Positions 4,789-21,344 of a DNA stretch of 64,000 nt are shown piece by piece. Below the pieces are notes generated by a model that was given only the letters and a program-made list of their open reading frames with translations, ran no database searches and had not been told where the DNA came from. A program made the position numbers and the translations under genes. Location of the stretch: NCBI RefSeq assembly GCF_000266945.1, contig NC_018025.1:4034001-4098000 (forward strand), given 5' to 3'. The stretch's first letter is position 1. The number at the start of each line of letters is the position of its first letter. The DNA is from Desulfomonile tiedjei DSM 6799 (lineage in GTDB: Bacteria; Desulfobacterota; Desulfomonilia; Desulfomonilales; Desulfomonilaceae).

Positions 4789-5365
4789 GGTGATCAAGGT
4801 ATGCACGTCTCCACCAGTGTCAAGTGGGCATGACAAAAAGAAATCTTCACAAAACATTGCACGTAATGATCTTTTTGATATGAATGCCGAAATCCTCCAC
4901 AGCAAAGAAGCATGTAAAGAAATAATTCGCAGAGCTGCTTCTTTTGGACTGCCCTGCAATCAAAAACCCGAGTCACCTCCTCTCCCGCTATGTTGACAAT
5001 GGTGATGGTCAATGAGTCAATCACGGCGATTGCCATCTTGATGAGGTTACTGGACATTTCGGGACCACCGTTGGAACATACGCATGTACGGAATGTTAAA
5101 ATGCAACCGATCGGGGTCTTGGCATAATCCTTGCATGGAACCCCTGAGCACGAAGTGGAACCACGGCCACGAAGAAGAAACGGGCCAGGAATTTCTGTGG
5201 ACAGAGTTCCATGGTGGGCATCAGCGGGTTTGTTCTCTGCGTCGGCTCCGAATCAGGGGTCGATCAATCTAGGAGCCAACGGAACGAACAAATAGCTTGT
5301 TATTTCCAGCCAATGGACGTATTCTCCGTTCCTGAGATGCAGAAATTAAGGGAGACTGCCTGTCT
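4789..5365. other. Intergenic region ahead of restriction-modification gene
   Basis: The divergent gap between the minus-strand small gene and the restriction-modification gene has no convincing gene. It contains a sigma-54-like site at 5119-5136. A weak minus-strand frame at 4794-5057 was considered and not accepted. Confidence 0.45.
5119..5136 (+). promoter_or_regulatory. Candidate sigma-54 (-24/-12) promoter
   Basis: TTGGCATAATCCTTGCAT has the GG-N10-GC spacing and most of the TGGCA...TTGCA consensus of RpoN promoters. It is oriented toward the restriction-modification gene that begins 230 bases downstream. A second such site with the same CCTTGCATGG end occurs at 20125-20141. Confidence 0.4.
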
Positions 5366-8300
5366 ATGCCGACGCTCGATCTCAAAACGAACCACAAAGC
5401 CGTGAAGGAATACTACGCAGGGCTCGAAGAATTTCACCGCCTCGGGGTTATCCATGAAACGGCTGTCCGTGCTGCGTTCCAAAGGCTCTTGGAGCATTGT
5501 TGCAAACAAACCAAGTGGACTTTCGTCGGCGAGTACAAATACCTCAGGAAGGGCCAGAGACCGCTCAGCGTTGACGGGGCGGCAGTTGACGGCTTCAAAA
5601 TCCCGCAGGCTTATTGGGAGGCCAAGGATACGCAGGATGACCTCCCGAAAGAGGTGCAGAAGAAATTCGAGAAAGGCTATCCCAGGAACAACATCGTTTT
5701 CCAGAGTCCCGACAGGGCCATCCTTTGGCAAGATTCCCGTCAAATACTTGATGGAGACATCACCAAACCTGATACCCTGGTCTATGTCGTAAAGGAACTG
5801 TTTGCTTACCAGCCCCAGAGCCAAAGGGATTGGGAAGCAGCTGTTGAGGAGTTCAAGCAAGACATACCCGCAAGTGCGGCCAAGCTGGTCGAACTCATCG
5901 AGACCGAACGCAAAGACAACAAAAGCTTTGTGAAAGCTTTCAACAGCTTTTCTGAAGTGTGCCGCTCGTCCATCAATCCCAACCTGTCAGATGCCGCCGT
6001 AGAAGAAATGCTTGTTCAACACCTGTTGACGGAAAGAATCTTCCGCAAGGTTTTTCACAACTCCGAATTCACGGACCGCAACATCATTGCTCGGGAAATT
6101 GAACGGGTCATCCATGCTCTCACATCAAGAAAATTTAGTCGAGAAGAGTTCCTGAGGCCGCTGGATCGTTTCTATGGGGCGCTTGAACGCAGGGCCGAGA
6201 CCCTTGATGACTACAGCCAACAGCAGACCTTCTTGAACACAGTGTATGAGAAGTTCTTCCAGGGTTTTGCTGTCAAGCAGGCAGACACTCACGGTATCGT
6301 GTACACCCCGCAGCCCATTGTAGATTTCATGGTTCGCTCTGTGGAGGAAATCCTGAAAAGAGAGTTCGGGAAGAGTCTGAGCGACGAAGGGGTGCACATA
6401 ATCGATCCCTTCGTGGGCACAGGGAATTTCGTTACACGGATCATGCGGGAGATGAAGAAGACTTCCCTGCCTCAGAAATACTCCCAGGAATTGCACTGCA
6501 ACGAGGTGATGCTGCTCCCATATTACGTGGCATCCATGAACATTGAACACGAGTATTATGAACGGACGGGAGAATACAAGCCTTTCGAGGGTATCTGCCT
6601 TGTGGACACCTTTGAGCTAGCGGAAAGCAAGCAACTATCCTTCATGTTCACACAGGAGAATACCGAGCGGGTAGAAAAGCTCAGAAAAACCAAGCTATTT
6701 GTTATTATTGGGAACCCTCCGTACAATGCCCATCAATTAGACGAAAACGACAAGAATAAGAATCGTAAGTACAAGACCATGGACAAAAGGGTCGCAGAGA
6801 CATATTCGAAAGATAGCTTGGCAACCAACAAGAACGCCTTGTCCGATCCATACGTGAAAGCTATACGTTGGGCGTCAGATAAAATCCTTGAGAGTAGAGA
6901 GGGAGTCGTAGCCTTTGTCTCGAACAGCAACTTCGTGTCGGATTTCGGCTTCGATGGAATGCGTAAGCACCTGCTCGAAGACTTCGATCTTATCTATGTT
7001 CTTGACCTTGGCGGGAACGTCCGAAAGAACCCTAAGATTTCTGGAACGACGCATAACGTTTTTGGAATACAGGTTGGTGTTAGTATTAACCTTTTTGTTC
7101 GTTTGCAGAATCACGGCAGCGGAAGATTCTTCTATTCTCGTGTAGATGATTTCTGGAAAAAGGAGCAGAAATTTTCCCTCCTGGAATCCTGTGGAGCATT
7201 TTCAGCTGTGAAGTGGGAAGAGATGTCTCCTGACGGCAGACACTCTTGGCTCACGAGCGGAATGCAGCCTGACTTCCCTGATTTGTTACCCATGGGAACA
7301 AAAGAGACGAAAGCAGGAATGGGAAATTCCCTCTTCAAGCTGTTCAGTTCTGGCATAAAGACAAATCGGGACTCGTGGGTCTACAATTTCGACGAAACAC
7401 GGCTTTCTGCAAACATTCGCAGGATTATAGAGACTTACAATGACCACGTAATTCGATGGAGCAGCAGTTTTCCCAGGCCAGACGTGGACAGCTTCGTCGA
7501 GGAGGACGTGTCCAAAATCAGTTGGTCCGAGGGTCTCAAGACCTCCTTGCAGAGGGGAAAGGTTGTTCAGTTCCGTGATACGTCCATTCGTAAGGCTCAT
7601 TATCGCCCGTTCACCTCGATGAGATTGTACCTCGATCCTATTCTCGCAGAACGATGCTATCGAATGCCTATAGTCTTTCCATCATCTCATACGGAAACTG
7701 AGAACCTTGCTATTTGCGTCGGCGCTTATGGACGTAAGGCATTTTCTGTGCTGATGGTCGATGGCTTCCCAGACGTGAATTTCTTTGGAGATCCTCATCA
7801 GGTCTTCCCGTTGTTCACTTACTCGGAAGATGGGTCGGATCGACGTGAGAACATCACAGATTGGGCAACAGAACAGTTCTCATCATCTGTAAAAGGCAAA
7901 GTTAATAAGAGGCAAATCTTCCATTACATTTACGCTGCTCTTCACTCTCCAGAATATCGGGAAAAATACCAAGCCAATCTCAAAAGAGAGCTTCCACGGA
8001 TACCTGCGCCGAAAACCATTGACCAGTTCTGTGCGTTCGTGTCGGCAGGCGAACGACTGGCAGATTTGCACATCAATTACGAGTCCCAGCCCGAACACCC
8101 TCTTGAGAAAATAGAGAATCCCGACAAGACCCTTAACTGGCGGGTGGAAAAGATGAAACTGACGAAGGACAAAACAGCCATTGTCTATAACGACTTTCTT
8201 ACCCTTGCAGGCATTCCTCCAGAAGCCTTTGAATACAGGCTTGGCAATCGTTCTGCATTGGAATGGATCATTGACAGGTACCAGGTACACACGGACAAGA

Positions 8301-8425
8301 GGAGCGGCATTGTCAACGATCCGAACCGAGCAGATGACCCGCAGTACATTGTGAAGCTGATTGGGAAGATTATTACAGTGAGCCTGGAAACGATGAAGAC
8401 CGTGAAATCTCTGCCCCAACTGTGA
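5366..8425 (+). CDS. Single-chain type IIG / ISP-like restriction-modification enzyme
   Basis: The 1019-residue product combines endonuclease, N6-adenine methyltransferase and target recognition in one chain. Near the N-terminus a PD-(D/E)XK-type nuclease site is seen: D75 and E85-A-K87 (DGFKIPQAYWEAKD). The AdoMet motif I (DPFVGTGNF) is at about residues 346-354 and the catalytic NPPY at about 450-453, the order of gamma-class MTases. The last 400 residues have the aromatic-rich character of the LlaBIII/LlaGI specificity domain. Classical type ISP enzymes are near 1500 residues with a central helicase; no Walker or DEAD box is present between nuclease and MTase here, so it is shorter and helicase-free, as in MmeI-type IIG enzymes. 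The next gene follows within 15 bases. Confidence 0.85.
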   Translation: MPTLDLKTNHKAVKEYYAGLEEFHRLGVIHETAVRAAFQRLLEHCCKQTKWTFVGEYKYLRKGQRPLSVDGAAVDGFKIPQAYWEAKDTQDDLPKEVQKKFEKGYPRNNIVFQSPDRAILWQDSRQILDGDITKPDTLVYVVKELFAYQPQSQRDWEAAVEEFKQDIPASAAKLVELIETERKDNKSFVKAFNSFSEVCRSSINPNLSDAAVEEMLVQHLLTERIFRKVFHNSEFTDRNIIAREIERVIHALTSRKFSREEFLRPLDRFYGALERRAETLDDYSQQQTFLNTVYEKFFQGFAVKQADTHGIVYTPQPIVDFMVRSVEEILKREFGKSLSDEGVHIIDPFVGTGNFVTRIMREMKKTSLPQKYSQELHCNEVMLLPYYVASMNIEHEYYERTGEYKPFEGICLVDTFELAESKQLSFMFTQENTERVEKLRKTKLFVIIGNPPYNAHQLDENDKNKNRKYKTMDKRVAETYSKDSLATNKNALSDPYVKAIRWASDKILESREGVVAFVSNSNFVSDFGFDGMRKHLLEDFDLIYVLDLGGNVRKNPKISGTTHNVFGIQVGVSINLFVRLQNHGSGRFFYSRVDDFWKKEQKFSLLESCGAFSAVKWEEMSPDGRHSWLTSGMQPDFPDLLPMGTKETKAGMGNSLFKLFSSGIKTNRDSWVYNFDETRLSANIRRIIETYNDHVIRWSSSFPRPDVDSFVEEDVSKISWSEGLKTSLQRGKVVQFRDTSIRKAHYRPFTSMRLYLDPILAERCYRMPIVFPSSHTETENLAICVGAYGRKAFSVLMVDGFPDVNFFGDPHQVFPLFTYSEDGSDRRENITDWATEQFSSSVKGKVNKRQIFHYIYAALHSPEYREKYQANLKRELPRIPAPKTIDQFCAFVSAGERLADLHINYESQPEHPLEKIENPDKTLNWRVEKMKLTKDKTAIVYNDFLTLAGIPPEAFEYRLGNRSALEWIIDRYQVHTDKRSGIVNDPNRADDPQYIVKLIGKIITVSLETMKTVKSLPQL

Positions 8426-8438
8426 GGCTGTGGACACA

Positions 8439-9578
8439 ATGTGCGAATCAAGAATGAGACTGTTTGACGGGGTTGAATCTCTTGGCGACAGAACCATTTT
8501 GTACAATGAGTCGGGTTTCGATTATCTTCAAGGTTCTGGTCGTCCAGAAATGATTCGAGTCAAAGATCTTCTTGAGTCTTGGTTCTCGGATTACCCTGAC
8601 GAAAACAAGGAAGCACTGCGCAAACGCTTGCGTGGAGAAAAGCAGAACGGTCAGAAGCACAAACTTAGTCTGCGGCGTTCGAGCTTTCAGCAGGCCTTTT
8701 TCGAGCTGTACGTCTACACTTTGCTCCGAAGACTTGGCTGCAACGTGGTGGTTGAGCCAAACATAGGCCATATTCAAGGCAAAGACACGTCTCCCGACTT
8801 CTTGGCGACGAACGACTCCACAGGTTATTCATTCTATGTCGAGGCCACTGTTCAGACGGATGGCCGAGCTCAACAGTATGATGAGTTCGAGAGAGAAATC
8901 AAAGCCACGCTGGATCAGCTCAGATGCCCCGATTTTATAGTATGCATAGATCAATTTCGGATTACATCAAAACAGTGGACGCCTTCAACGAAACGACTTG
9001 CTCGGTATGTTGAGAAACGGCTATTAGAACTTAGGGCGGAGCCTTCTGCACGAGCTTTTGGCCCATTGACCTTTCAAGGTCATGGTTGGCGGCTGACCTT
9101 CCATTTTGAATCGAGGTCCGAACAAGAACTTTGGGTAAAGCCCACTCGTTCATTGAAAGAAACTGGTTCTACGAGAGCCGTATATGATACGGAAAACATA
9201 CGAAAGGCCATCAAAGATAAGGCTTCTCATTACGGATACTTGAACCACCCATTCATAATAGCCATAAATGTAAGAGAACACTTAGTCACGCCAGAAACGG
9301 TTTTCGAAGCCCTGTACGGCTCCGTGAAACATGTTTTCAATGTCGTGCCACACGAAGGTAGAGTCATTGGTGATCTGGAATTCAGCCATTTCCAGCCCAA
9401 ATACAACGGTGCTTTTCGTGCTCGTGGCAGGCAGCATACAAGGGTCAGTGCGGTATGGGTTGCGAGCAGTCTATTCGGTCCATCCGCAATTGGTTCAGCA
9501 GATATGTACCAGTTCGAGAATCATTTTGCAGAGGACCGATTCCAGCCTAATTTCCCGTGTCTTCCCTCATGTCTATAG
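8439..9578 (+). pseudogene. PD-(D/E)XK-like accessory gene, 5' part, interrupted by IS701-type element
   Basis: This frame starts 13 bases after the restriction-modification gene (ATG 8439, with GAGG upstream; a GTG at 8430 and ATG at 8454 are alternatives). About residues 110-160 carry SPDF...FYVEAT, which resembles a PD-x(n)-E-x-K nuclease site with T in place of K. The frame runs into the insertion sequence at 9573 and stops at once on its CTATAG end. Removing the element and one 7-base target copy joins it to 11059-11190 and restores a frame of about 421 residues in total. In the present state the product lacks its last 43 residues and has two residues (one being Leu from the IS) at the join. 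Its close link to the restriction-modification gene suggests an accessory role. Confidence 0.7.
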
Positions 9579-10934
9579 TTTCGCGATTCTTGCATGGTCG
9601 AGTCCGCGCGTGGAGCGCGGGCCGTTGAGTTTTTCGAACTTATTGATTCGGCTGGCTTTCGAATAAATTCTCAGCGAGAAATGACTCCTTCGAGCTGCTG
9701 CCAGCATGTCTGAAAAGGTGAACGACTTTTTCCGGCAGTACCAGGGAGCCGGGTCGGCAACGAGGTTCTTTGCAGTGACGAATTGCCCAACGAACCAAAG
9801 CACTACAAAGCAGTAGGCCCAGTAAGCAAACATAGGGGCACGGGTTACCGAGGTCTCTTTCCGACACTGAGGTTCAGCCGCACCCAGGAGGTTCTTGGTC
9901 TCTCGATTGGTCATCTCAATGCTAAAGCGTGCAGCGTAGCGCTCGATAATCTGCTGTGGTGCAGCCTGAGGGTCCGTATCGAAAAACACCATATTGGCAT
10001 GGTGGCCGGCCGGGTCATGGCACAACACGATCGAAAGAGGCTGTTGCCCTGCGCTATGATACCATAGCGCCGTGAACTGATGTATCAGGAGCTTAGTTTG
10101 TTTTCCATAGCAGAAGACCCTAATCTCATTCCACCCCAGATTGGGGTCCTGGAACATCGTTTCCAGGGAGGGCAGTCGAGCGCCTCTCTTGCGAGGTCTG
10201 CCCATCACTGTAAATGGAGCAGGTTCCAGCACAGCGAACAAAGCTGCATCCTTTCTCAGCCTCCCTGTAATGTGCACATTCTTGGGTCGTGCTTTGAGGA
10301 TGGTATCGCAGCAGTATCCCAGGTCGAACACAATTCTCAGTCTTTCTCCCTCTTGGAGCCATGAATGAGTCAGATTTATAAGATCCAATCCAAGTTCGGG
10401 TTTTGTCTTGTAGGGCAGGCTCTTGGGATTAAACTTGGCCTTTGGCGGCCACCAAAGGCGGGCAGCGTATGGCAGACAAAACATGCGATCGCTGATGCCG
10501 GGAAGGCGAATCGCCAGTCCTATGATGACAAAGCACACTCCATACCCCTTTTGCTTAGTATGCTTTGGGAGTGAACCATCATGCTGCCAGCCCGCGCCAC
10601 AGATCTTCTTGCCAGTGTGCTTGTTCAAGGTGTCGTCAATCACCACAAGGATCTCGATCCCTTCTGCAATCAGCGTTTCTACCAACATTCTGAAGACGAA
10701 ATAGGAGACAAAGTCAGTCTCCCATCGTCCCTTGCCGAGGAATCGGTAGATGCTGGCGAAGTGCTTGGATTCATGGAGTCTCATGGTCAGAATCACCTGG
10801 CTGATAGTGTGCTTGCCCATAGTGAGCACCCAACCGACCACCAGCGCAACGAAGATACGGAAACTCGGTGCGCTGAAACACGCTCTGAAATGAATCTCGT
10901 CAATCCCGAACGGATCTGGTATAGATCTCTTCAA
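9573..10934 (-). CDS. IS701-like DDE transposase (DDE_5)
   Basis: The product has 453 residues when started at the TTG behind an AAGGAGG site; a GTG 30 bases earlier is the alternative. Catalytic acidic residues of the DDE fold are visible: D in LVVIDDTLNKH, D in RIVFDLGY and E in SIEMTNRETKN. The N-terminal part (FRACFSAPSFRIFVALVVGWVL) and length agree with IS701 transposases. The stop codon lies within the terminal inverted repeat. The frame is intact, so the element may still be active. Confidence 0.85.
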   Translation of the reverse strand: MKRSIPDPFGIDEIHFRACFSAPSFRIFVALVVGWVLTMGKHTISQVILTMRLHESKHFASIYRFLGKGRWETDFVSYFVFRMLVETLIAEGIEILVVIDDTLNKHTGKKICGAGWQHDGSLPKHTKQKGYGVCFVIIGLAIRLPGISDRMFCLPYAARLWWPPKAKFNPKSLPYKTKPELGLDLINLTHSWLQEGERLRIVFDLGYCCDTILKARPKNVHITGRLRKDAALFAVLEPAPFTVMGRPRKRGARLPSLETMFQDPNLGWNEIRVFCYGKQTKLLIHQFTALWYHSAGQQPLSIVLCHDPAGHHANMVFFDTDPQAAPQQIIERYAARFSIEMTNRETKNLLGAAEPQCRKETSVTRAPMFAYWAYCFVVLWFVGQFVTAKNLVADPAPWYCRKKSFTFSDMLAAARRSHFSLRIYSKASRINKFEKLNGPRSTRGLDHARIAKL

Positions 10935-11051
10935 CTGGCGTTCCTCCTTCCCAGAATCTTTCACAAAACCGGGTATGTGCGGAACGCCTTATTTTTTCAA
11001 GGATTATCTCACCATCTAACCGTCCAGAATACAAAAAGGGCGAAACTATAG
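9573..11051. mobile_element. IS701-family insertion sequence (1479 bp)
   Basis: The element has 12-bp perfect terminal inverted repeats CTATAGTTTCGC / GCGAAACTATAG and is flanked by a 7-base direct repeat CTCATGT (9566-9572 and 11052-11058). It carries one transposase gene. Because CTATAG is itself palindromic, the exact ends could shift by a few bases; IS701 elements usually duplicate about 4 bases, so the 7-base repeat is slightly unusual. It interrupts the gene at 8439. Confidence 0.85.
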
Positions 11052-11058
11052 CTCATGT

Positions 11059-11190
11059 TATATCGATGATAAAGGAGAACTGGCAGTACGCCCTGGGTTG
11101 ACTCCGCAACAGATACTCGGGATTGAATCTTATTGGCCCGAAGATAAGCCACGTCCCAAGATCGATTTTTCAAAATGGTTCTGCAAGTAG
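11059..11190 (+). pseudogene. 3' part of the gene interrupted by the IS701-type element
   Basis: After removal of the insertion and one target copy, codons continue in frame from TGT at 9570-9572 into TAT-ATC-GAT at 11059 and run 43 codons to a TAG at 11188-11190. The segment is protein-like (YIDDKGELAVRPG... and ...PKIDFSKWFCK). This reconstruction shows that the upstream gene is disrupted and its authentic C-terminus lies here. Confidence 0.75.
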
Positions 11191-11316
11191 AATGCCCGTA
11201 GAAACTGGTGTCCGTCGTCGCCAGTTGGTTTCAATTGGGGAGACCGAATTCCGAGTGGGGCATATATGGCCCAGTGGATGACCACAAATCCTGTGCCCTC
11301 TTCAGAGGTTCTCACC

Positions 11317-12336
11317 CTAATTACCCGATCTTGAAACTACTCCTTGCAAGGGAGTCGCCAAACACTTACCTGTCTTTGCGTCTATATCGACTCGGCGTGG
11401 AATAAAGACCTGATAAGCAGAACGGTTGTGAGTTAGCGTTATGCAGGCCTCAATCACATTAAAGATCTTTATTACGCAAACCAAATCATTTCCTGAATAG
11501 CAGATACGGGCCATGTGAGAGGATCCCAGAGCGCTAAGCGGCCCGTCAAAGACGGGTATGTGCCTCAAAGAGATTATGCTGTTGACAGCATCTTCGCATG
11601 CCGACGAAGGCTCGATGACGAAACGTCGGAGTGTTTCACCACACGGGTCCTCCATGTAGTCTCGTCCAAGCCATTCACACGCTAACTCATAAGCAATCTT
11701 GGCCACAGCACGCTTGCAATGCACGGCATCGATGTCTTCCGAAAGTGCAACCAGATTCGGTTCGGCCTTCACCATTCTGCCCCGAAACCCGATTTTTCGA
11801 TCGCTCGTTAACAGGCATTCAACCCCATCTGGGTGTTCCCTGAGGTATTCGCATAAATGCGAGATGTCTTCAGGGGGCGGGGCGGGGAGACCTTCCTTCT
11901 CGTAAAACGATCGGATTCGGGACTCGATACTGCCCACATCTTCAGGATCGTAGATAAATGTCCGCCATTCGGCACCGTCATTTGTTGTTGGAGGGGCACA
12001 TTCTTTGGGAACAACTCGTGGATGCAAGCCGCCTTCTCTTTTGTCATATGTCAGTTTAACCTTAATGTCTTCTTTGTTGTCGGTTGAGCTTTCCACCAGC
12101 TCTCCAATGAAGGGTCTTATGTTGCCTTTTTGTCCCACCAAGCCTAAGTGGGATCTGATCAATCGTATCAGAGGATGATCAGTTATTGCGGGATCGATCC
12201 TCTGTCCTAGTTCTGAGTTGCAATCCCTGCAGACACTTTTTTCAATCTTAAAGGAGCCGCCGATGGCCATAGGAAACACGTGCTCAGTAGAGAACTGGTC
12301 TTCTGGTTTTTCGATATTGCAGAAAATGCACTTCAT
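11317..12336 (-). CDS. HNH endonuclease-like protein
   Basis: The 339-residue product starts at an ATG with AGGAGG six bases upstream. The first 45 residues hold an HNH_5-type zinc finger: C3-x2-C6, E18-H19 (STEHVFP) and C-x2-C-N (VCRDCNSELG). The remaining 290 residues form an unrecognised domain. Such proteins are common in defence islands, where they are thought to cut foreign DNA, but here the function is inferred only from the motif and the neighbouring restriction genes. It is transcribed toward the disrupted nuclease gene. Confidence 0.7.
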   Translation of the reverse strand: MKCIFCNIEKPEDQFSTEHVFPMAIGGSFKIEKSVCRDCNSELGQRIDPAITDHPLIRLIRSHLGLVGQKGNIRPFIGELVESSTDNKEDIKVKLTYDKREGGLHPRVVPKECAPPTTNDGAEWRTFIYDPEDVGSIESRIRSFYEKEGLPAPPPEDISHLCEYLREHPDGVECLLTSDRKIGFRGRMVKAEPNLVALSEDIDAVHCKRAVAKIAYELACEWLGRDYMEDPCGETLRRFVIEPSSACEDAVNSIISLRHIPVFDGPLSALGSSHMARICYSGNDLVCVIKIFNVIEACITLTHNRSAYQVFIPRRVDIDAKTGKCLATPLQGVVSRSGN

Positions 12337-12497
12337 CCATGCCTCCTGAAGAAAGATAGGTCATGAGGCCAGTTTCTTTGAAGGGGTGCCGTAGGAAGAC
12401 TATCCGAATGTGATCTGGAACAAGGAGAAGGTCAAGAAAATTGTGCAGAAGAGAACAGACAGATCTCGTCGAGGAAGGGCAGTCTACGACCAAAATC

Positions 12498-12528
12498 TTT
12501 TGGCACTTTTTTGGCCCCTTTTGGCCCC
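12498..12528. repeat. Tandem short repeats at the right end of element L, candidate integrase arm sites
   Basis: Three near-tandem units (TTTTGGCAC, then TTTTGGCCCC twice) lie about 95 bases before the tRNA fragment. Their position mirrors the repeat pairs of elements A and B, so they are probably arm-type sites for the integrase of element L, which is outside the window. Confidence 0.5.
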
Positions 12529-12620
12529 TCGATGGTCAGTGACGGACCTTGATGGATTTTGATAGATGTTGATTTTACAAGGGAATCTCGGCAAGACGGC
12601 TCTGGGATTAGCTGGTTGTA

Positions 12621-12671
12621 AGCCTTCACACGGCAGGGGTCGGAGGTTCAAATCCTCTCCCGCCTACCAGT
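12621..12671 (+). other. Attachment site 1: 3' fragment of a tRNA gene (probably tRNA-Val, CAC)
   Basis: The 51 bases are identical to 36292-36342. They read as the 3' half of a tRNA: anticodon loop TTCACAC (anticodon CAC), GGCAG, variable loop, T arm GGAGG-TTCAAAT-CCTCT, acceptor strand CCCGCCT, A, CCA. No complementary 5' acceptor AGGCGGG lies upstream, so this is the fragment left by integration and not a functional tRNA. It separates element L from element A. Confidence 0.85.
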
Positions 12672-12703
12672 TAACTAGTTGTAATCATTGAGATGAGGTC
12701 GTG

Positions 12704-13957
12704 TCACCCCACGGCCTTTTTTCTTTCCTCCGAGTTTTCCCGTGACTTTCCCGTGACTTTTTTCGGGAGACTATCGGGATGGGCCTTTTCGGCAATGTCC
12801 AGTTCGGTCCATCCGTGGTCGAAAGTCATGGAGTCCACAGCATCCAAGAGCACTTGGTCAGACACCCTGATGTACCGATCTTGAACGGAGCGTTCCCCAG
12901 AGTGGCCGACGATAAGATTTCTCACCGCCGGGTCCATCCCCGAGCGTTGGGCGTTGGTCTTCCATGTATGCCTGAGATCACGTCTCTGAAGGCCCTTGAG
13001 ACCAGTAGCCTTAATCGCATTGTCCCAAGCCTTTCGCACCATGAAACGATCAATGGGATCACTTTGCGGACCACGGTGCTTCTTGTATCGTCCACCATAG
13101 GCAAAGATCAGTCCTATTGCTCGGACCACTTTTCCGTCATCGCCACGTCTGAGAGTTTCGAGAAGCTCAAGCGGTTCCTTCCGCAACGGTACTCTCTTAG
13201 GCCGTAACCTGACTTTTCTTTCGCTCTTGCCCTCTTTGGTCACGTCTGGGGGCAGTACCAACATTCGACGTTCAGGTTTGTACATTTCCCATCTCAGGTT
13301 TACGACCTCTCCGAATCTCATGCCCGTGTAGTACATCATCTCAAGAACGTCCCGAATCCACCCAGAGTGCTCCAGCAGGCGACTAAAGTCCTTCCAAGAC
13401 AAATAGGTATCTCGCTGGTTTTCGGGCAGTCGCTTGATCATCGTACAAGGGTTGAAGTCCAGATTCTCCAGTTCCACTTGCAACCGCATTACCCCAGACA
13501 AGACGGAAAGTTCCCTGTTGACGGTTCCATTCTCAACTTTTTCCTGCCTAGCTCTTCGATATTCCCTCACCTGGGGGACTCGTATGTCTTTCAACCGAGG
13601 ATTGTCCGTGAAGTGCTCGACCAAACGATCAATCGCTGATAGGTTCCGCTCCGAGCGATGCCGTGTGTCGGCTTCCAGATAAGCCGTAATTGCTTGCATA
13701 AGCGTGAGATCTTCTCCAGGCAGAGGCCGAGCCAATTCTGATGGCAAAGCCCAGCCCTTGTTCTCATGGGTGCGGATGACCCAAGCTTTTGCGGCTTCAT
13801 CTAAGCTATCAAAACGATAGACTCTGAAAGCGCTTTTCACGTCTTTTTCAATCCTCTTGGCTTCGGCCAGGTTTTTCGCCTCGGATACCGTCTCCAAGCG
13901 CTCCTTTTTCCACTGAAAGTAAATCACGAAGCGTCCATTCTCGTTTTTTATTGCCAC
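12704..13957 (-). CDS. int: Tyrosine recombinase / integrase of element A
   Basis: Started at the GTG behind an AAGGAGG site, the product has 417 residues and overlaps the excisionase-like gene by 10 bases; a GTG at 13987 would add 10 residues. The C-terminal catalytic domain shows the arginine in TGMRFGE, the box R-D-L-R-H-T, GH in VGHSG and the nucleophile Y in QDRYIR. The first position of the usual H-x-x-R box is Arg (RDLRHT), unlike the element B enzyme (HDLRHT). The N-terminal half has the core-binding SAM-like region. The stop lies 33 bases from the attachment site, as expected for an integrase that recombines the tRNA fragment. Confidence 0.9.
   Translation of the reverse strand: MAIKNENGRFVIYFQWKKERLETVSEAKNLAEAKRIEKDVKSAFRVYRFDSLDEAAKAWVIRTHENKGWALPSELARPLPGEDLTLMQAITAYLEADTRHRSERNLSAIDRLVEHFTDNPRLKDIRVPQVREYRRARQEKVENGTVNRELSVLSGVMRLQVELENLDFNPCTMIKRLPENQRDTYLSWKDFSRLLEHSGWIRDVLEMMYYTGMRFGEVVNLRWEMYKPERRMLVLPPDVTKEGKSERKVRLRPKRVPLRKEPLELLETLRRGDDGKVVRAIGLIFAYGGRYKKHRGPQSDPIDRFMVRKAWDNAIKATGLKGLQRRDLRHTWKTNAQRSGMDPAVRNLIVGHSGERSVQDRYIRVSDQVLLDAVDSMTFDHGWTELDIAEKAHPDSLPKKVTGKSRENSEERKKAVG
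12739..12761. repeat. Left-end tandem arm-type repeats of element A
   Basis: Two tandem copies of CCCGTGACTTT, 11-bp period, lie within the 3' end of the integrase gene. The same 23 bases recur at 36171-36193 near the other end and nowhere else that I see. This is the layout of integrase arm-binding sites. Confidence 0.6.
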
Positions 13958-14262
13958 TGTTTGACCTCCTTGCGAAGGTCTTTCCACAATTCCCCTAAAC
14001 TCTTTTTATCGCCTCCCTTCTTTTTCGGGATCGGGCTGGCTGTCCTTCTGCCAGCCTCTTGATGATTCACGGGGATGGGCTCGATCTTTTTCGACTTGCC
14101 CTCCACGAAATCATCCACGGCGTCGGCGGTGAATAATACCACCTTTCTCGACAATTTCACGCTTTCAATCTTATTCTCTCTCGCCCATTTCAACAACGTC
14201 CTCTTCTCAATTCTGAGCCTCTCGGCTGCCTCGGCAGCGGTTAGTAGTTCCTTTCCTGACAA
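13948..14262 (-). CDS. Excisionase-like HTH protein of element A
   Basis: The 104-residue product starts at a TTG with GGAGGT eight bases upstream. Residues 6-60 form a MerR/excisionase-type winged helix (LLTAAEAAERLRIEKRTLLKWARENKIESVKLSRKVVLF, then DAVDDFVEG). The tail is basic and rich in proline. It overlaps the integrase start by 10 bases, so the two are translationally coupled; the same pair occurs in element B. A hairpin (14287-14303) precedes it. Role in directing excision or controlling int is inferred. Confidence 0.75.
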   Translation of the reverse strand: MSGKELLTAAEAAERLRIEKRTLLKWARENKIESVKLSRKVVLFTADAVDDFVEGKSKKIEPIPVNHQEAGRRTASPIPKKKGGDKKSLGELWKDLRKEVKQWQ

Positions 14263-14286
14263 CTATCAGGACCTCCATGTGTACCC

Positions 14287-14303
14287 GCAGGAGTTTCTCC
14301 TGC
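14287..14303. promoter_or_regulatory. Stem-loop upstream of the excisionase-integrase operon
   Basis: GCAGGAG-TTT-CTCCTGC forms a perfect 7-bp stem between the gene at 14414 and the excisionase start. There is no T tract on the minus strand, so it is more likely a processing or regulatory hairpin than a terminator. Confidence 0.35.
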
Positions 14304-14413
14304 TTTGGTGCGGATCATAAGACCCACCTTGTGCTCCGCTTCCTGTCGGAGGCAGTAGGAAGCGAAGCGGCGGCCTCAAATAATCAATGGCCGCTCAGAA
14401 GTCCACCGTTGCA

Positions 14414-14944
14414 TCAGTTCACGCTGAACTTTGTTTTCCCGCCTACGATATTCTTCAGAAACTTATCGAGGCTGAGGCCCGCTTTCCTCAACTGATTGTA
14501 AAAGAATGAGGAAACAACGTAGCCTTTTGCAGGGACGTACATCAAAAAGCCTCTGAGATCGGGATTTTGGACATAGGCCGAATGTAGGAGATTCTCCAGC
14601 TCACTCTTGTTCATATTCAATTCGGAGCCAAGTTTTCCCGTGGGACAAAACGAGGCGCAAAGCTGGCTATCATCCAATACCCGAACATCTTCTCTAGGGG
14701 CGATATCTAATCCGATGCGATCGCATGCATATTGTATTGAATTACCAAATATTTCCATCCAATCTTCGCCCAATTCTTTCTTCGGGAAATGCTCCATAAA
14801 TGATGCGATGAAATAGTCAACCGTTATTCCCGTGTTAGGATGAAATTCCACGAATTCCGTTGGAATAGCTCCCATAACTATCAGCAAGTTCACATCCGTT
14901 ATCCGGTAATCGGTGCGTCCAAATAATTTGTCTTTCTTCTTCAT
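14414..14944 (-). CDS. Hypothetical protein
   Basis: The product has 176 residues from the ATG at 14944 (AAGGAAAA upstream); a TTG at 14995 would extend it. It starts MKKKDKLFGRTDYRITDVNLL and is mixed alpha/beta in appearance, with an invariant-looking segment FPKKELGEDWMEIFGNSIQYAC in the middle. No signal peptide, membrane segment or known motif is visible. It is the last gene of the element's left minus-strand group, ahead of the excisionase. Family unknown. Confidence 0.55.
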   Translation of the reverse strand: MKKKDKLFGRTDYRITDVNLLIVMGAIPTEFVEFHPNTGITVDYFIASFMEHFPKKELGEDWMEIFGNSIQYACDRIGLDIAPREDVRVLDDSQLCASFCPTGKLGSELNMNKSELENLLHSAYVQNPDLRGFLMYVPAKGYVVSSFFYNQLRKAGLSLDKFLKNIVGGKTKFSVN

Positions 14945-14995
14945 TACTGTCGTTTTCCTTCTGAGTGCCGTCCGATGTCTTGAGAAAGAGCCCAA

Positions 14996-15842
14996 GCAGC
15001 ACTCGTTTTTGATTAATGCCGTTGCACGTCAAAATTGTGAAATTATTTTGAGCTTGAGTTGATGTGAAGTGAAGCGGCCTTCAAGGACATGTCACCTGAA
15101 GGCCCGATCAGGAACGATTTAAAACGAAGAATCTGAATGCGCTAATGAAAGGAATTCTGCGGATTATGAAGTCTATCGGTATACTTTTGGTCGTATTTAG
15201 TTGTCGTATAACGTGCCAGCGTCGTTATGTGTGTTATGTATCCTGAGTTGCGAAAAGGTTCCTCATTTTTTTGTGCATAATGTCAGTTTTTGTATTCGCT
15301 AAAATATATGTTATACATAATAAATGAACATTTATTAAACATACTCACCTTTCCGTGAGCATCGGGCGGCTTCATTACCGTCACTTGAATTCTCAGTTTT
15401 TCATGAGCAAGAGGTCGGTCGTCGGTCGGACCTTGTTGAAAACCCGCATCTGGACTCATCAACCCCCTGACCAACTCCCTGCGACCAACCTTTATTTGAA
15501 GAAGGCGGTGGTCACGAGATTACTTCTGCAATATCCCAAAATCGCTCAAATCGCCTCCCAGGTGCCTTCCCGTCCATTTTCTTTTGCGGACACTCCTGAA
15601 GTGGGAAGAATCCGAACGGCAATGTTCATAAGTCCTTGACAATGTGAATACATTCGGCAACTTCTACTTATTATTTAATAATCTCACGAAACGGGTATGC
15701 TCGACTATTGCCGCTTCAAGAAAATCGCTCAGAATTGTTCTCAGGGCGTCTTAAGAACCAGCCTCAAGCATATCGGAATCCCGTTTCACTGGTCGGCCCG
15801 AAGTGGTAAGATTGTCCATGATCGATCCTATGGAGTCACCGC
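14996..15842. other. AT-rich intergenic region, candidate control or origin region
   Basis: No gene is supported here. An AT-rich stretch near 15290-15345 contains a perfect 20-bp palindrome TAATAAATG-AA-CATTTATTA (15318-15337) and a TATGTTATACATA sequence beside it. Further on, two GGTCGGTC-type units (15413-15429) resemble the CCGACCGACC motif found elsewhere in the element. Divergent promoters for the flanking genes, or a replication origin next to the initiator-like gene, are both plausible. Confidence 0.4.
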
Positions 15843-16889
15843 ATGGAAGATTTTAAAGATTCGGCTCTCGATCCCGATGAATTCATACGAGCTTGGCACG
15901 AGTACGGCCTACGCTTTTCCGTTTTCGTTCCCGACCAGCAGCCCAAGCCTGACACGTGGGAACCCGACGTGCAGAAGTTCGATGAGAAGGGCCTCACGAA
16001 TCCCCATTACTTGAAGCATTGGAAGTTCTTCGCCAGCACCAAGGACTTTCTCCGAGAGCGATACGCCGAACATAAGATTCTTCAAGGCCCCACGCTGTTC
16101 TTCGATTGTCTGGTGCCCGAATTCCAAGATCCGATGCGGTACGGGCGTGTAGAAGCCGAATCGGGGCCAGACTTTTATGAGGTCAAGGACACTTCAAAAT
16201 GGTACGAGCGGGCCATCCGCATGGGAATCTTTGATTGGCAGATCGGATTTTCCTGTAGATCCGTGCTTTGTCAGCGGACTTGGTGTGACATGCACCGGGG
16301 GAACCCACATCGTATAAACCACGTAGACATCTACGGTCTTATGACCGTCTTTGAAAAGATTCCCGCCGTCACGGGTAAGTCTCAAGTTGCGAAATGGTTC
16401 GAGGTGAAGCTCGGTGATTTGAAGAGCACGGGAAAAAGGGTTAGCTCACGATGGCGGAGAAAGGTGGCCAAAGACGGATTTTACGCTTTAATAAAGAATT
16501 ACGAGAACATGCGGACTCATCAGGTAAAAGAGATGATCAGCCGCCTTCATTCTCTCATCACGGGAAGCCCAGTGGTAGAATGGCACCGCAGGCTGTTTGA
16601 CGGCGATCACGCTTTCATTGCCGACAAGGCCGCATCCCATCTACACAAGATCAAAGGCCCAGCCGCAAAGGCATATGTATGGCTGTTGATCCGCCAAGAA
16701 GAATTGGCTCAGGACACTCGTGGACCGAAGCTGAACGTAAGCGATGCAGAGCTTGGGCAGGCCATTGGGGTCACGAAGACGACTGCGCAGAATTACCGTC
16801 AAATTCTCATGAAACTGAAGCTCATAGAGACTTCACGAAAAACAGTGGCTAAAATCAAACAGATAACTATCACGAAAGTGAAATACTAA
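15843..16889 (+). CDS. Replication-initiator-like winged-helix protein
   Basis: The 348-residue product starts behind GGAG at 8-base spacing. The C-terminal 80 residues look like a winged helix (AKAYVWLLIRQEEL..., then SDAELGQAIGVTKTTAQNYRQILMKLKLIE), a layout seen in plasmid and phage replication initiators and regulators. The N-terminal 240 residues are unrecognised, with many W, H and C residues (SCRSVLCQRTWCDMHRG). It is followed 230 bases later by a DNA polymerase gene on the same strand, and both lie between repeat-rich regions. An initiator or regulator role is an inference from this placing. Confidence 0.45.
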   Translation: MEDFKDSALDPDEFIRAWHEYGLRFSVFVPDQQPKPDTWEPDVQKFDEKGLTNPHYLKHWKFFASTKDFLRERYAEHKILQGPTLFFDCLVPEFQDPMRYGRVEAESGPDFYEVKDTSKWYERAIRMGIFDWQIGFSCRSVLCQRTWCDMHRGNPHRINHVDIYGLMTVFEKIPAVTGKSQVAKWFEVKLGDLKSTGKRVSSRWRRKVAKDGFYALIKNYENMRTHQVKEMISRLHSLITGSPVVEWHRRLFDGDHAFIADKAASHLHKIKGPAAKAYVWLLIRQEELAQDTRGPKLNVSDAELGQAIGVTKTTAQNYRQILMKLKLIETSRKTVAKIKQITITKVKY

Positions 16890-17118
16890 GCGGATACTGC
16901 AACTTGTCACCCTTGACCATTTTATGATAGTATTTCGGTGGGTTGGGGATTTACATACCTATTAATAACTATAGCTATATTCTCTACTCCCTCTCTGCTC
17001 CCCTGCGCTACTCCTCACTACCCTCACGAACTTTATATTATTATTCAAGAGAATTCCTGTATAATTATTCCCCTGTTTAAGCACAGGGTTATGAATCCCC
17101 GATTATGAGAACGGTTTT
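16890..17118 (+). promoter_or_regulatory. Leader of polymerase gene with hairpin and pyrimidine tract
   Basis: The gap contains a pyrimidine-rich stretch on the plus strand at about 16982-17028 and a stem-loop CCCTGT-TTAAGC-ACAGGG at 17071-17088, 30 bases ahead of the polymerase start. It may regulate polymerase expression. No gene is present. Confidence 0.35.
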
Positions 17119-18858
17119 ATGACTAGGTTTACGGCTCCCGAACATCTTATCTCGAATTTAGAGTCCAGCAGTACCGTGGCTCTGACGGCTCCCGTATTCA
17201 TGAAGGACCGAGTACTGATCGGCTTTGCTCTATCGGATACTGAAGCCCATTGTTTGGAGCTGGGGATTAATGAATTCAAGTCCTTGTGTACATCAATGTA
17301 CCGTGTCGATGGGCACAGTCGTTTCGATATCGAAACAACTGCCTTTCACGGGCTCAAGAGGATTTGGGAGTTCCTTGACGAAATGGGCTTAAACTCGGTC
17401 GAAGAAGCTCCCAACGCTTTGAACCTCAAAGGAATACAAGACACTCGCTTGATGGCGTACCTGCTTGATCCCGACTCATCGCAGGAAGTTAAGTTCGGGG
17501 ACAATCAGGTACAGGAAAAGTTGACCTTTGCCCATGTAGCGCATCGGTATCTTGGCCGTGATTATCCTTACAGGATTACGGACATTTATGATAAGGCTTC
17601 ATGGGATCTCGCCGCCGAGATGCTTGCCTATGATGCGGGCCTGATCTTCGAATTGGCCGAGAAACTGCCTACCCTTATGTCTCATGATCTCCAAAAGCTC
17701 TATAATCAGATAGAGTTGCCGCTCATGCCGCTATTGGACAACATGCGACGGGTCGGGATCGGATTCGACGGCGAAAAATGCGGGGAACTGATAATAGAGA
17801 CGGAACGTGGAATGGCTGCTCTGGCCGCCGACATCACTGGCGGTGAATCTGTAGATCTGTCTTCGAATGAGTCTGTTTACGACTTCTTAACCGCCAAAGG
17901 CGTGCCGGTCCGATTGGCTCCCGCTCAAGTCAAGCGTGGGTTGAAGAAGCCTCTGGGGCAGATCGCCCATAGTGACCCGCTCATAAGGAAGATGCTGAGC
18001 TGGTGGAACAGGGGTGAGGATTTGGGGTTCCTCCGTCGATGGGCGGGCCATAGCCGCATACATCCCACATGGGGCCAAACACGTTCGGCTACTTCCCGCA
18101 TTTATGCTCGCAGCCCAGCCGTACAAAACGTGAGCCGCAGATTGAGGGGACTCTTTGTCCCAAAATCAGGCCACGCTCTGATCAAAGCCGACTATTCGCA
18201 GGCTCAAATGAGGATCATCGCTCACCTTTCCGAAGATCCTGAGCTGATGCGTATATTTCGAGATCCGAACGGAGATGTACATATGGAAACATCCGAGCGC
18301 CTGGGCCTCAATGATCGTTCCGTAGCAAAGGAGATCAACTTTGCAATCTGTTTCGGGATGGGAGCGCCGGGGCTTTGCACGAAGATAAACGAGCTGAGAC
18401 AGGATCAGGGTAGTACGGATTTCATTAATGGGGACACGGCCCGATCTTATATTAAGGGCTTCTACAGAAGGTTTCCCAAAGTGAAAGAATTCTTTGATCG
18501 GGAGTGGAAGAAGATGAAGAAACTCCCCTCAGACCAAAGGATCGTGCGGAGCCTTGCGGGCAGAGAACGTCATTTCCCAAGGTGGCCCACATTTGAGGTG
18601 GAACGGCAGTTTAGGGTTACATGGCCCCAGCAGATCGAAGCAGACTTGATTAAGACGGCAATGTTGCGACTGGACCGAATATTCCGACGACGCAGTATGG
18701 ACGCCCGCATTGTCATGATGATCCACGACGCCTTGTGGGTTGAGTGCCCCGAAAAAGAAGCGGAGCAGGTCAAGCATTTGACGCAAAGGATGATGATCAC
18801 CTCGGGGAAACTAAGGGTTCCGTTGGACGTGGATATACAAATATGCAAGATTGTCTAA
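17119..18858 (+). CDS. Family A DNA polymerase (PolA-like), exonuclease-degenerate
   Basis: The 579-residue product matches the Klenow part of DNA polymerase I without the N-terminal 5' nuclease. Motif A (ADYSQAQMRIIAHL, catalytic D near 358), motif B (RSVAKEINFAICFGMG) and motif C (MMIHDALWVE, H-D near 536) are intact. In motif B the usual YG is FG. The 3'-5' exonuclease region is present as a fold, but the D-x-E of motif I is replaced (TVALTAPV) and the N-x3-F/Y-D of motif II is missing, so proofreading is probably lost. A phage- or plasmid-type replicative or repair polymerase for the element is likely. It stands alone, followed by the palindrome region. Confidence 0.85.
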   Translation: MTRFTAPEHLISNLESSSTVALTAPVFMKDRVLIGFALSDTEAHCLELGINEFKSLCTSMYRVDGHSRFDIETTAFHGLKRIWEFLDEMGLNSVEEAPNALNLKGIQDTRLMAYLLDPDSSQEVKFGDNQVQEKLTFAHVAHRYLGRDYPYRITDIYDKASWDLAAEMLAYDAGLIFELAEKLPTLMSHDLQKLYNQIELPLMPLLDNMRRVGIGFDGEKCGELIIETERGMAALAADITGGESVDLSSNESVYDFLTAKGVPVRLAPAQVKRGLKKPLGQIAHSDPLIRKMLSWWNRGEDLGFLRRWAGHSRIHPTWGQTRSATSRIYARSPAVQNVSRRLRGLFVPKSGHALIKADYSQAQMRIIAHLSEDPELMRIFRDPNGDVHMETSERLGLNDRSVAKEINFAICFGMGAPGLCTKINELRQDQGSTDFINGDTARSYIKGFYRRFPKVKEFFDREWKKMKKLPSDQRIVRSLAGRERHFPRWPTFEVERQFRVTWPQQIEADLIKTAMLRLDRIFRRRSMDARIVMMIHDALWVECPEKEAEQVKHLTQRMMITSGKLRVPLDVDIQICKIV

Positions 18859-18871
18859 TAATATTGCCTGT

Positions 18872-19191
18872 GTATTCGATTCGAGTACGCCGAAACCGTA
18901 TTGAATTTGTGAAAAGCAACCATCCTCAATCTGAGGCCAGGTGACCAGTCAACCGTATTCAATTTGAATACAGATGAAGACCAGAGCAGCCTCGGTGCGT
19001 CGATAGGTCGGAACAAAAAGTTCCCCCCTTGTTTTGGCCATCGCCGCTAATACCTGATATCCACTGCATTCCAACTTTGCCTGAAGCCGAAGGGGTCCTC
19101 AATTTGAGGACGGTTGAGCAACATAAGGCACGATCTCCAGATTACCGAGTGTGGAGGGGGCGTCAATTTGACGACCCCTTGAATTGAGGAC
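18872..19191. repeat. Family of 13-17-bp palindromes with one-base centre
   Basis: Five palindromes occur within 300 bases after the polymerase gene: GTATTCGA-T-TCGAGTAC (18872, one G:T mismatch), CCTCA-ATC-TGAGG (18924), GTATTCAA-T-TTGAATAC (18955), GTCCTCAA-T-TTGAGGAC (19095) and CGTCAA-T-TTGACG (19161). A half site TTGAGGAC follows at 19184. Most share the core TCAATTTGA, but the outer bases differ between copies and change together on both arms, so pairing is kept. Candidate iterons, operators or RNA hairpins; no gene is present. Confidence 0.65.
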
Positions 19192-19276
19192 AAAATGCCG
19201 TTCGGCCCAAGGTAGTTGGATATCCCCCCACCTCTTTCTGAAGGAGAAATAGTCGGGGCCGACCATCCCCCACGAG

Positions 19277-19620
19277 CCGACCGACCAAGCCAAGTCGGGT
19301 TTTATTGATAATATTGATCAGATGACCAACCGACCGACCTTTCCCGTAGATAAAGCAAGCATAAAAGAATGCGAGCGAATACTTACTCCATTTATTCTTC
19401 GGCTTTGACGTGTCGCTCGGTCAGTTCTTTTGCAACCTGTTGGCATTCCAAGAAGAAGTGTGCGACCGACCCGCCTATTTGTTTGGTCCCATGCGGAAAA
19501 TCCCTTGGTCGGGACCGTGACCTCTCGGACAATACCCAATGCCGAGGAGACCAAGTGGAATGACCGAAACTATTAGGAAGTACATCAATGATTTCGAACT
19601 AATGACCAACCGACCGACCT
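19277..19620. repeat. CCGACCGACC repeats in non-coding region
   Basis: Exact CCGACCGACC occurs at 19277, 19330 and 19610. The last two are part of identical 19-base units (19322-19340 and 19602-19620), 280 bases apart. Further copies are at 25542-25559 (one mismatch), 25689-25698 (inverted) and 27515-27524, all between genes of element A. The whole stretch 18859-20190 has no supported gene. Confidence 0.6.
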
Positions 19621-20124
19621 CTTTGGTAATAGAAGATAAAGCTGAGCCGAAATGTCGCTCCATGGACTCAATCATACTTTCTATGCAAAGGTCAGGTTGG
19701 TCGTAAAGTTCACAACTTGCCGAAAATAAGATGGAAAAGGCATGACCGACCTCAGTCAGATGGACGGTCATCACGGGATTTTTATCCTATCCTTTGCCTA
19801 ATGAAGACTGAAGGATCAGCCAGCCGTCCTTGGGTTGAGTTCAGGAGATCGCTTTCCCTGAAAGGAAGCCGATGTGCCGATTGGTGGCTGCGGGTTTCTC
19901 TCGATTTCATATCGACTCTTTCCGAATGTTCCCACCGCACGTATCCGATAATTTCAAAATGATCGTTCAGAAGGTTAAGGATAGGATTTGGAATAAGTGG
20001 CTGATTTTGTGAATACTTGACGGGCTGGAACGCAATTGCGGCAAAAGCGTTTCGGTGCATGATTACGGCAGAAAGGCCAAAAATTGCAAGTACCGAACGG
20101 TGAAAAACAAATGATGAATTTACA

Positions 20125-20141
20125 TGGCACCGTCCTTGCAT
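20125..20141 (+). promoter_or_regulatory. Candidate sigma-54 promoter
   Basis: TGGCACCGTCCTTGCAT fits the RpoN consensus TGGCAC-N5-TTGCA with GG-N10-GC spacing almost perfectly. It points at the hairpin 20192-20213, about 50 bases downstream, and no plus-strand gene follows. It could make a very short RNA or be a chance match. Confidence 0.4.
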
Positions 20142-20191
20142 GGGAATTTCATGTCTTCCGATGCTACCGTCAAACCGAACTGCACGGAGAA

Positions 20192-20213
20192 ATAGAGACC
20201 TTGGAGTCTCTAT
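20192..20213 (-). terminator. Hairpin terminator after nuclease module, copy 2
   Basis: ATAGAGAC and GTCTCTAT form an 8-bp stem followed on the minus strand by TTTCT. It is 30 bases after the stop of 20244-20555 and closely resembles the hairpin at 663-683. Confidence 0.65.
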
Positions 20214-20243
20214 ATGATTTCATATGATACGCACCCAGCGTTA

Positions 20244-20555
20244 TCAGACGCCGTTTTCCGACTCCGTGTCGTTCGGCTGAACCAAACCTTCCCTGTTGAA
20301 CTGCTCCTGCAGGGCGACTTCTGCGGCCTCCATACGTTCCGCCGCAGTTCGCAAAAGCGATTCAGTCCGTTGTCCCGCTTCGTCTATCCTTCTGAGAAGG
20401 CCGTTCATCCGCATAGCTCTGGCCTTGAACATATTGGCGGTTTGTTCCAGAAATGAGCCCACCACACCTGAGTCGGGCGGTAATACGGTTACGGCGGCCG
20501 TCGGTTGATAAGCCACTATGTCGGTCACATTACGAGGTTCCTTTATCTTCGCCAT
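20244..20555 (-). CDS. Small helical protein partnered with the nuclease (copy 2)
   Basis: The 103-residue product starts at an ATG with GGAGGG five bases upstream, inside the end of the nuclease gene region. It is the paralogue of 309-617 (shared VTDIVAYQPTAAVTVLPP and the ARAMRMNGLLRRIDEAGQRTE helix). The N-terminal conserved segment plus a long amphipathic helix suggests a protein-protein adaptor. The family was not recognised. It is the last gene of the recombination operon before the terminator hairpin. Confidence 0.8.
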   Translation of the reverse strand: MAKIKEPRNVTDIVAYQPTAAVTVLPPDSGVVGSFLEQTANMFKARAMRMNGLLRRIDEAGQRTESLLRTAAERMEAAEVALQEQFNREGLVQPNDTESENGV

Positions 20556-20564
20556 TTTACCCTC

Positions 20565-21344
20565 CTACCAATCCCGGCAATTCTTGGCCCAGGCGCATTG
20601 AATACAGCCCCAATCCTGCCTTGGAAAGAAAACTTCCTGTTGGATACCGTTCCAAACGCTGTAGAGCAGCCTCATGAATCGATGACGGTCATCCGCTGTG
20701 CGCCTGGTCTCATATCTCACCATCCCCGCCTCTTTGGTTTTAAGCAGCACGTCCAGCCGAAACGTCAGATCGTCAGGATTGAATCCCATGGATTCTGTAG
20801 CCAAAGCGTAGGCGGTCAGTTGCAGATTTGTATCAACATTGCTCTGAGAGAGCTTCTTTGAAGCCGTCTTCAAGTCAACCAGGGTGACGCAGCCATCATG
20901 CGATTCCTCAATCAGGTCGATGTACCCTTGAAAAGGAGGAAGGCCGCCCAGTGGTATCTCAAAGAACTCCTCCACTCCGATGACCTGAGAACCCGAATCA
21001 ACGGAGTCATGAAAAACGGAGAGCATATTTCGGGCTTTCTCCATTAACGTGTTTTCGTTGTCGCCATTAAGGAATTTTACCCGTTCCGCCCGTCGCCACT
21101 CATCCCGATAGACATCAAGCAATTGATCTACCCTTAAGGGCTCCGCCTCAAGACGACCCTGATGGAATGCGGCTGCGGCTTCATGGATTGCCGAGCCAAA
21201 GACCAAGGCCGCCGTCGTGAAAGCGGGAGGGATGTCATCGACATATTTGAACCGATATTGGAGCGGGCAGCCCAGATAACAGTAAATTTGAGAATACGAT
21301 AAGTGGTCGTGAGTCGTTTGAACTACTGCCTTTGCCAGTTCCAT
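20565..21344 (-). CDS. RecB/Cas4-like PD-(D/E)XK exonuclease
   Basis: The 259-residue product starts behind GGAGGT at 7-base spacing. Motifs in order: a cysteine in YCYLGCPLQYRFKY, the RecB-type FGSAIHEA helix, the catalytic D of GYIDLIEE, V-D-L-K-T, the N-LQLTAYA helix (Q-x3-Y class) and the final C-x2-C-x5-C (WGCIQCAWAKNC). Together these are the four cysteines of a 4Fe-4S cluster and the active site of the Cas4/AddB-like PDDEXK_1 family. It sits after a probable annealing protein gene and before a small partner gene, so it is probably the 5'-3' exonuclease of a phage-type recombination system. No cas genes are nearby. Confidence 0.85.
   Translation of the reverse strand: MELAKAVVQTTHDHLSYSQIYCYLGCPLQYRFKYVDDIPPAFTTAALVFGSAIHEAAAAFHQGRLEAEPLRVDQLLDVYRDEWRRAERVKFLNGDNENTLMEKARNMLSVFHDSVDSGSQVIGVEEFFEIPLGGLPPFQGYIDLIEESHDGCVTLVDLKTASKKLSQSNVDTNLQLTAYALATESMGFNPDDLTFRLDVLLKTKEAGMVRYETRRTADDRHRFMRLLYSVWNGIQQEVFFPRQDWGCIQCAWAKNCRDW

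Follow-up and report, generated by a model that had tools for sequence, protein, structure and literature searches.

An array of palindromes with co-varying arms, candidate sites for an element-encoded DNA-binding protein, beside a polymerase gene of Desulfomonile tiedjei

Arrays of iterons or operators are bound on plasmids by replication initiators, and the rule in arrays of binding sites is a consensus from which each arm departs independently. Rickettsia palindromic elements and repeats of the REP or MITE type are small palindromic units, to which one copy described here, lying in frame inside a gene, is comparable. The attC sites of integrons are kept for their structure over their sequence (PMC2727003), and hairpins kept by template switching carry multi-base compensatory differences between their arms (PMC8794818).

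The locus that we describe lies in a 64,000-nucleotide stretch of the D. tiedjei DSM 6799 genome (the window). Like the plasmid arrays, it has many copies of one half-site near putative initiator and polymerase genes on mobile elements, but these form inverted pairs rather than direct repeats, with irregular spacing, two centre lengths and covarying arms. Palindromy and the keeping of structure over sequence are shared with attC sites, whereas the sites here are shorter, have a conserved AT-rich centre, and come with neither cassettes nor an adjacent integron integrase; the attC boxes RYYYAAC/GTTRRRY were not seen by eye in the one site inspected. Unlike Rickettsia palindromic elements or REP and MITE repeats, which are dispersed, the ~15–20 copies here occupy a few loci of one genome. 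The compensatory arm differences resemble those of template-switch hairpins, except that they are combined here with a conserved half-site.

Five odd-length palindromes, each with a central T, span 18872–19180, 3′ of a DNA polymerase gene (Table 1). The first-pass annotation had reported five such palindromes with a mostly common core, arms that differ yet stay paired (GTAT/ATAC, GTCC/GGAC, CG/CG and CC/GG) and one copy with a G:T pair, and we recovered every one of these features: three copies have the exact core TCAATTTGA, all four arm pairs are present, and the G:T pair is in w1. The feature is larger than first described, with two additional even-centred palindromes, one of them inside the polymerase gene, and an extra half-site overlapping w6; the even-centred copies are members of the same set as the odd ones. 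Between the polymerase stop codon and the next genes of the element lie ~1.4 kb without convincing genes, of which the first 370 bases hold the five odd palindromes and one of the even-centred ones. Further downstream, window 19258–19760 contains repeated CCGACC motifs, among them ACCAACCGACCGACC twice, 280 bp apart.

Table 1. Features of the palindrome array and its neighbouring genes, in window coordinates.
Feature	Position	Strand	Description
Palindrome w1	18872..18888	+	GTATTCGATTCGAGTAC, core TCGATTCGA, one G:T pair; 20.8 bits with covariance model R1
Palindrome w3	18917..18943	+	CAACCATCCTCAATCTGAGGCCAGGTG, core TCAATCTGA; R1 23.6 bits
Palindrome w4	18949..18977	+	TCAACCGTATTCAATTTGAATACAGATGA, exact core TCAATTTGA; R1 29.4 bits
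Palindrome w5	19090..19116	+	Exact core TCAATTTGA; R1 27.9 bits
Palindrome w6	19154..19180	+	Exact core TCAATTTGA; R1 31 bits
Extra half-site overlapping w6	about 19177..19191		Minus-strand reading GTCCTCAA
Even-centred palindrome	19209..19234	.	AAGGTAGTTGGATATCCCCCCACCTC; counterpart at C2 1436–1461
Even-centred palindrome inside polymerase gene	17316..17341	.	CAGTCGTTTCGATATCGAAACAACTG; 6-aa in-frame insertion
Family A DNA polymerase	17119..18858	+	PF00476, E 1e-53; phrog_17
348-aa initiator-like protein	15843..16889	+	Weak C-terminal wHTH, below Pfam cut-off
Initiator–polymerase spacer	16890..17118	.	First ~100 bp AT-rich, conserved in C2

Palindrome density by itself is modest, borderline evidence: when the window was shuffled with its dinucleotides kept, 1 of 40 shuffles was equally dense (at least four odd palindromes with scores of 5.5 or more within 330 bp). 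The array stands out beyond its density because of its shared core: all three exact copies of TCAATTTGA in the whole 64 kb lie inside the array, and elsewhere near matches are scattered.

Another contig, C2 (26,923 bases), has a second array of this kind and family at positions 102–1461. C2, probably a circular plasmid, encodes close relatives of the 348-amino-acid protein (68% identical) and of the polymerase (69%), and its polymerase gene stops 10 bases short of the contig end; on a circular molecule, its array would therefore directly follow the polymerase gene, as in the window. Palindromes of the two arrays align over 20–27 bp at 89–100% identity (w6 and the C2 site at 587–611 are identical at 25 of 27 positions), whereas the spacers between palindromes yielded no alignment between the arrays. 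Our search of the literature for papers on C2 found none. C2 also carries ORFs resembling secF and secD (18278–20866), which are unusual on a plasmid, as well as an AbiEi/AbiEii pair and BrxD/BrxHI-like genes recognized by PADLOC (5185–6953 and 11051–15641).

A single 13-bp half-site, roughly CA(RY)N-GT-NN-TCAW, underlies all sites. Two half-sites face each other in each site across a centre of 3 bp (ATT) in the odd sites or 2 bp (TA) in the even ones, the half-sites being the same in both. When aligned by distance from the centre, they have A at 12, G at 8, T at 7 and T/C/A at 4-3-2, with mostly C at 13 and R-Y at 11-10 in many. Information peaks at distances 12, 8, 7, 4, 3 and 2, is 0.43 bits at distance 6, and is at most 0.15 bits at each of distances 5, 9, 14 and 15. 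Such position-specific conservation of a shared half-site has the look of protein-bound sites, as in dimeric operators; the fixed distance between half-sites that goes with such operators was not found, given the 2- and 3-bp centres. Because all sites are built from one common half-site, part of what had appeared as compensating arms is already explained. In a half-by-half comparison covering both arrays, the best match of a half was often a half of another site: the right half of w6 equals the left half of C2 site 599, and w5 is chimeric, its right half being that of the left side of C2 site 457 and its left half resembling the right half of C2 site 599.

At weakly conserved positions, symmetry is kept beyond sequence, and this result holds up statistically. 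Taking as expectation the agreement obtained when halves were re-dealt among sites, the arms of core-selected copies agreed at distances 5–6 in 15 of 16 cells (7.5 expected, P = 0.001). With the addition of even sites picked by their outer motif only, agreement was 21 of 26 cells as against 8.8 expected, a value reached in 0 of 50,000 re-deals. P stayed at or below 0.01 when near-duplicate copies were dropped, and the window's four core-selected copies alone made a weak test (P = 0.03–0.05). Nine direct-repeat iterons on C2, used as a control, showed arm agreement beyond the core in 14 of 36 cells (14.2 expected). In the covariation test, 8 of 9 model pairs were changed on both sides, with 20 such cells versus 7.8 in shuffles (0 of 500), a count biased by symmetry-based choice, as 2 of the 10 rows were not core-selected and some rows came from a palindrome scan; for this reason, copies chosen by core or by motif were used in the arm-agreement tests. 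All of these counts come from a small sample, two arrays in one genome, whose sites share ancestry. The earlier impression that symmetry is kept more than sequence was thereby borne out.

Arms that agree at weakly conserved positions might also arise by mutation alone, if a palindromic unit spread and its arms were made and repaired by template switching, with no selection acting on binding or structure. Stems are known to be both created and mended by template switching (PMC8794818), w5 is chimeric, and the copy within the polymerase gene sits at a six-residue in-frame insertion that the nearest homologous polymerases lack, which implies that a whole site can originate or relocate as one piece. 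We nevertheless consider this explanation unlikely, in view of palindromes far better conserved than their spacers between two elements with genes ~68% identical, the conservation of specific half-site positions, and the restriction of copies to few loci. Very improbable, in our judgement, are RNA hairpins in a transcript that extends beyond the polymerase gene, whether as small RNAs, as the first-pass annotation had suggested, or as 3′-UTR structure. The covarying pairs (which are not specific to RNA), the one G:T pair and the location just 3′ of the polymerase gene would suit such hairpins, but the non-Watson–Crick cells on the polymerase-sense strand comprised 8 G-T and 13 A-C, and it is this lack of a wobble bias that disfavours them. 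In addition, the asymmetric centre occurs on either strand, an Rfam search returned no match to a known family, and the sites are near-perfect dyads with palindromic loops of 4–5 nt.

Across the whole 6.5-Mb genome, the covariance model of the odd sites recovered the two arrays, with no other match below E 0.4, and hence no third array. The even-centred model found the C2 sites, the copy in the polymerase gene and a pair at C1:5986430–5986508, together with a weak match at C1:5945218 (E 0.077) taken as chance. No initiator or polymerase homolog lies near the C1:5986430 pair, and an origin of this pair as transposon ends was rejected because the insertion sequence at L062 6580–8066 falls outside it. 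(A copy of that insertion sequence, 99.9% identical, occupies window 9566–11051.) We also rejected dispersal of the insertion-sequence or REP-like type, since genome-wide searches confine the copies to few loci and did not find the many copies across the genome that mark a REP or MITE repeat. Among 60 relatives, model R1 gave scattered single matches (best E 0.01 per genome), as chance predicts, and no such array was found downstream of more distant initiator–polymerase pairs (~34% identical).

Related elements bear their own families of 26-bp palindromes. One of them, L032 (C1:2612000–2626000), contains a palindrome of its own in four copies, with half-sites AACWTGCCGTAC, at 5174, 6521, 9704 and 11283, one of which lies within the HTH_17 gene preceding an integrase. 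Three palindromes with the half-site AACATGCYNGAC occur in a neighbouring element (window 3557 and 3766, and L035 1862), with AAC about as far from the centre as it is in the main array. An identical palindrome, CGCGCGACAGTCGCGCG, is found at L028 4903–4919 and L031 5922–5938, the ends of two divergent polymerase loci.

Sites for a tyrosine recombinase, perhaps folded single-stranded like attC, would be expected to favour symmetry over sequence and could yield chimeras such as w5, which joins halves of two C2 sites; an XerC-like recombinase, which with the integron integrase model scores 31 of 265 bits, far below the cut-off, is encoded on C2, and 4 kb away from the C1:5986430 pair there is a fragment of its homolog. 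Yet the window has no XerC-like homolog, the sites measure 26–29 bp, gene cassettes do not make up the spacers, and conservation falls on the AT-rich centre, all of which makes a recombination array improbable.

The 348-amino-acid protein and the polymerase are the only genes common to just the two array-bearing elements; the SSAP, exonuclease and 103-amino-acid genes are present also in elements that lack the array. No relatives of the 348-amino-acid protein were found in the IMG/VR, phage and plasmid collections, its structure predicted alone was unusable (pLDDT 37), and the exonuclease used as a query against a collection of genome contigs gave no match. Elsewhere in the window are two near-identical, transposase-like 458-amino-acid ORFs in opposite orientation (42854–44230 and 48099–49475) and a 3949-amino-acid ORF (51824–63673).

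The first-pass interpretation is supported in part, but its proposal of an origin is not supported. The palindromes have the common half-site of an iteron set, but direct repeats at a regular ~18–22 bp are replaced by irregularly spaced inverted pairs, no DnaA box (TTATNCACA) occurs in C2 or in window 15.3–23 kb, and no AT-rich unwinding stretch lies beside the array (AT 0.40–0.63). C2 moreover has a separate set of nine TGTATCTGATAC-type iterons, mostly spaced by 18 bp (8036–8563, L001), partly inside a 174-amino-acid HTH_36 gene and before a 415-amino-acid HTH_36 rep-like gene, which places iterons and rep-like genes at 7.9–10 kb, apart from the palindromes, and its GC skew minimum is near 10 kb. 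These observations weaken the origin reading; a better place to look for an origin may be the conserved AT-rich start of the initiator–polymerase spacer (16890 to ~16990).

The reading that we favour, with a confidence just short of even, is a cis-acting array of inverted-repeat candidate sites at which an element-encoded protein would bind DNA as a dimer. Initiator-binding sites, also proposed in the first-pass annotation, are the best candidate class, on account of the common half-site and of a wHTH protein and polymerase unique to the array elements; the likeliest binder would be that 348-amino-acid protein, and the array would probably function in the element's replication or in the control of its copy number. 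Support comes from the preservation of palindromes amid unalignable spacers, the position of the array 3′ of the polymerase gene in both elements (with C2 as a circle), the occurrence of odd sites in the two arrays alone and of even sites in no more than these elements and the C1:5986430 pair, the concentration of half-site information at six distances, and the separate palindrome families of related elements. Binding sites fit less well with the absence of arrays beside the more distant initiator–polymerase pairs and of initiator or polymerase beside the C1:5986430 pair, with centres that differ in length by 1 bp, as is unusual where a dimer is rigid, and with arm agreement at weakly read positions, which would not be expected of a simple binding site. 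The sub-threshold wHTH match and the poor structure model weaken the case for the 348-amino-acid protein as binder.

If the array is a set of binding sites, a dimer would bind two 13-bp half-sites facing across the TA or ATT centre, and the wHTH protein encoded at 15843 would read the array in controlling replication or copy number. Symmetry at weakly preferred positions could then result from template switching between arms at the replication fork, which would correct mismatches, or else from recognition of a folded form, hairpin or cruciform; one or the other would best explain the arm agreement. A broader proposal, which we think rather unlikely, is that these are DNA sites carried by elements and recognized in part by their sequence and in part by a folded shape (hairpin or cruciform), with exchangeable half-sites and co-evolving arms, that would serve replication or recombination in a Desulfomonile element family. 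The array adjoins a lineage-specific protein–polymerase pair that no family library explains. Its arms co-vary where sequence is hardly constrained, a behaviour that the iterons of the sister replicon lack, and it provides, on a small scale, a natural setting in which selection on shape could be told apart from template switching that repairs palindromes by mutation.
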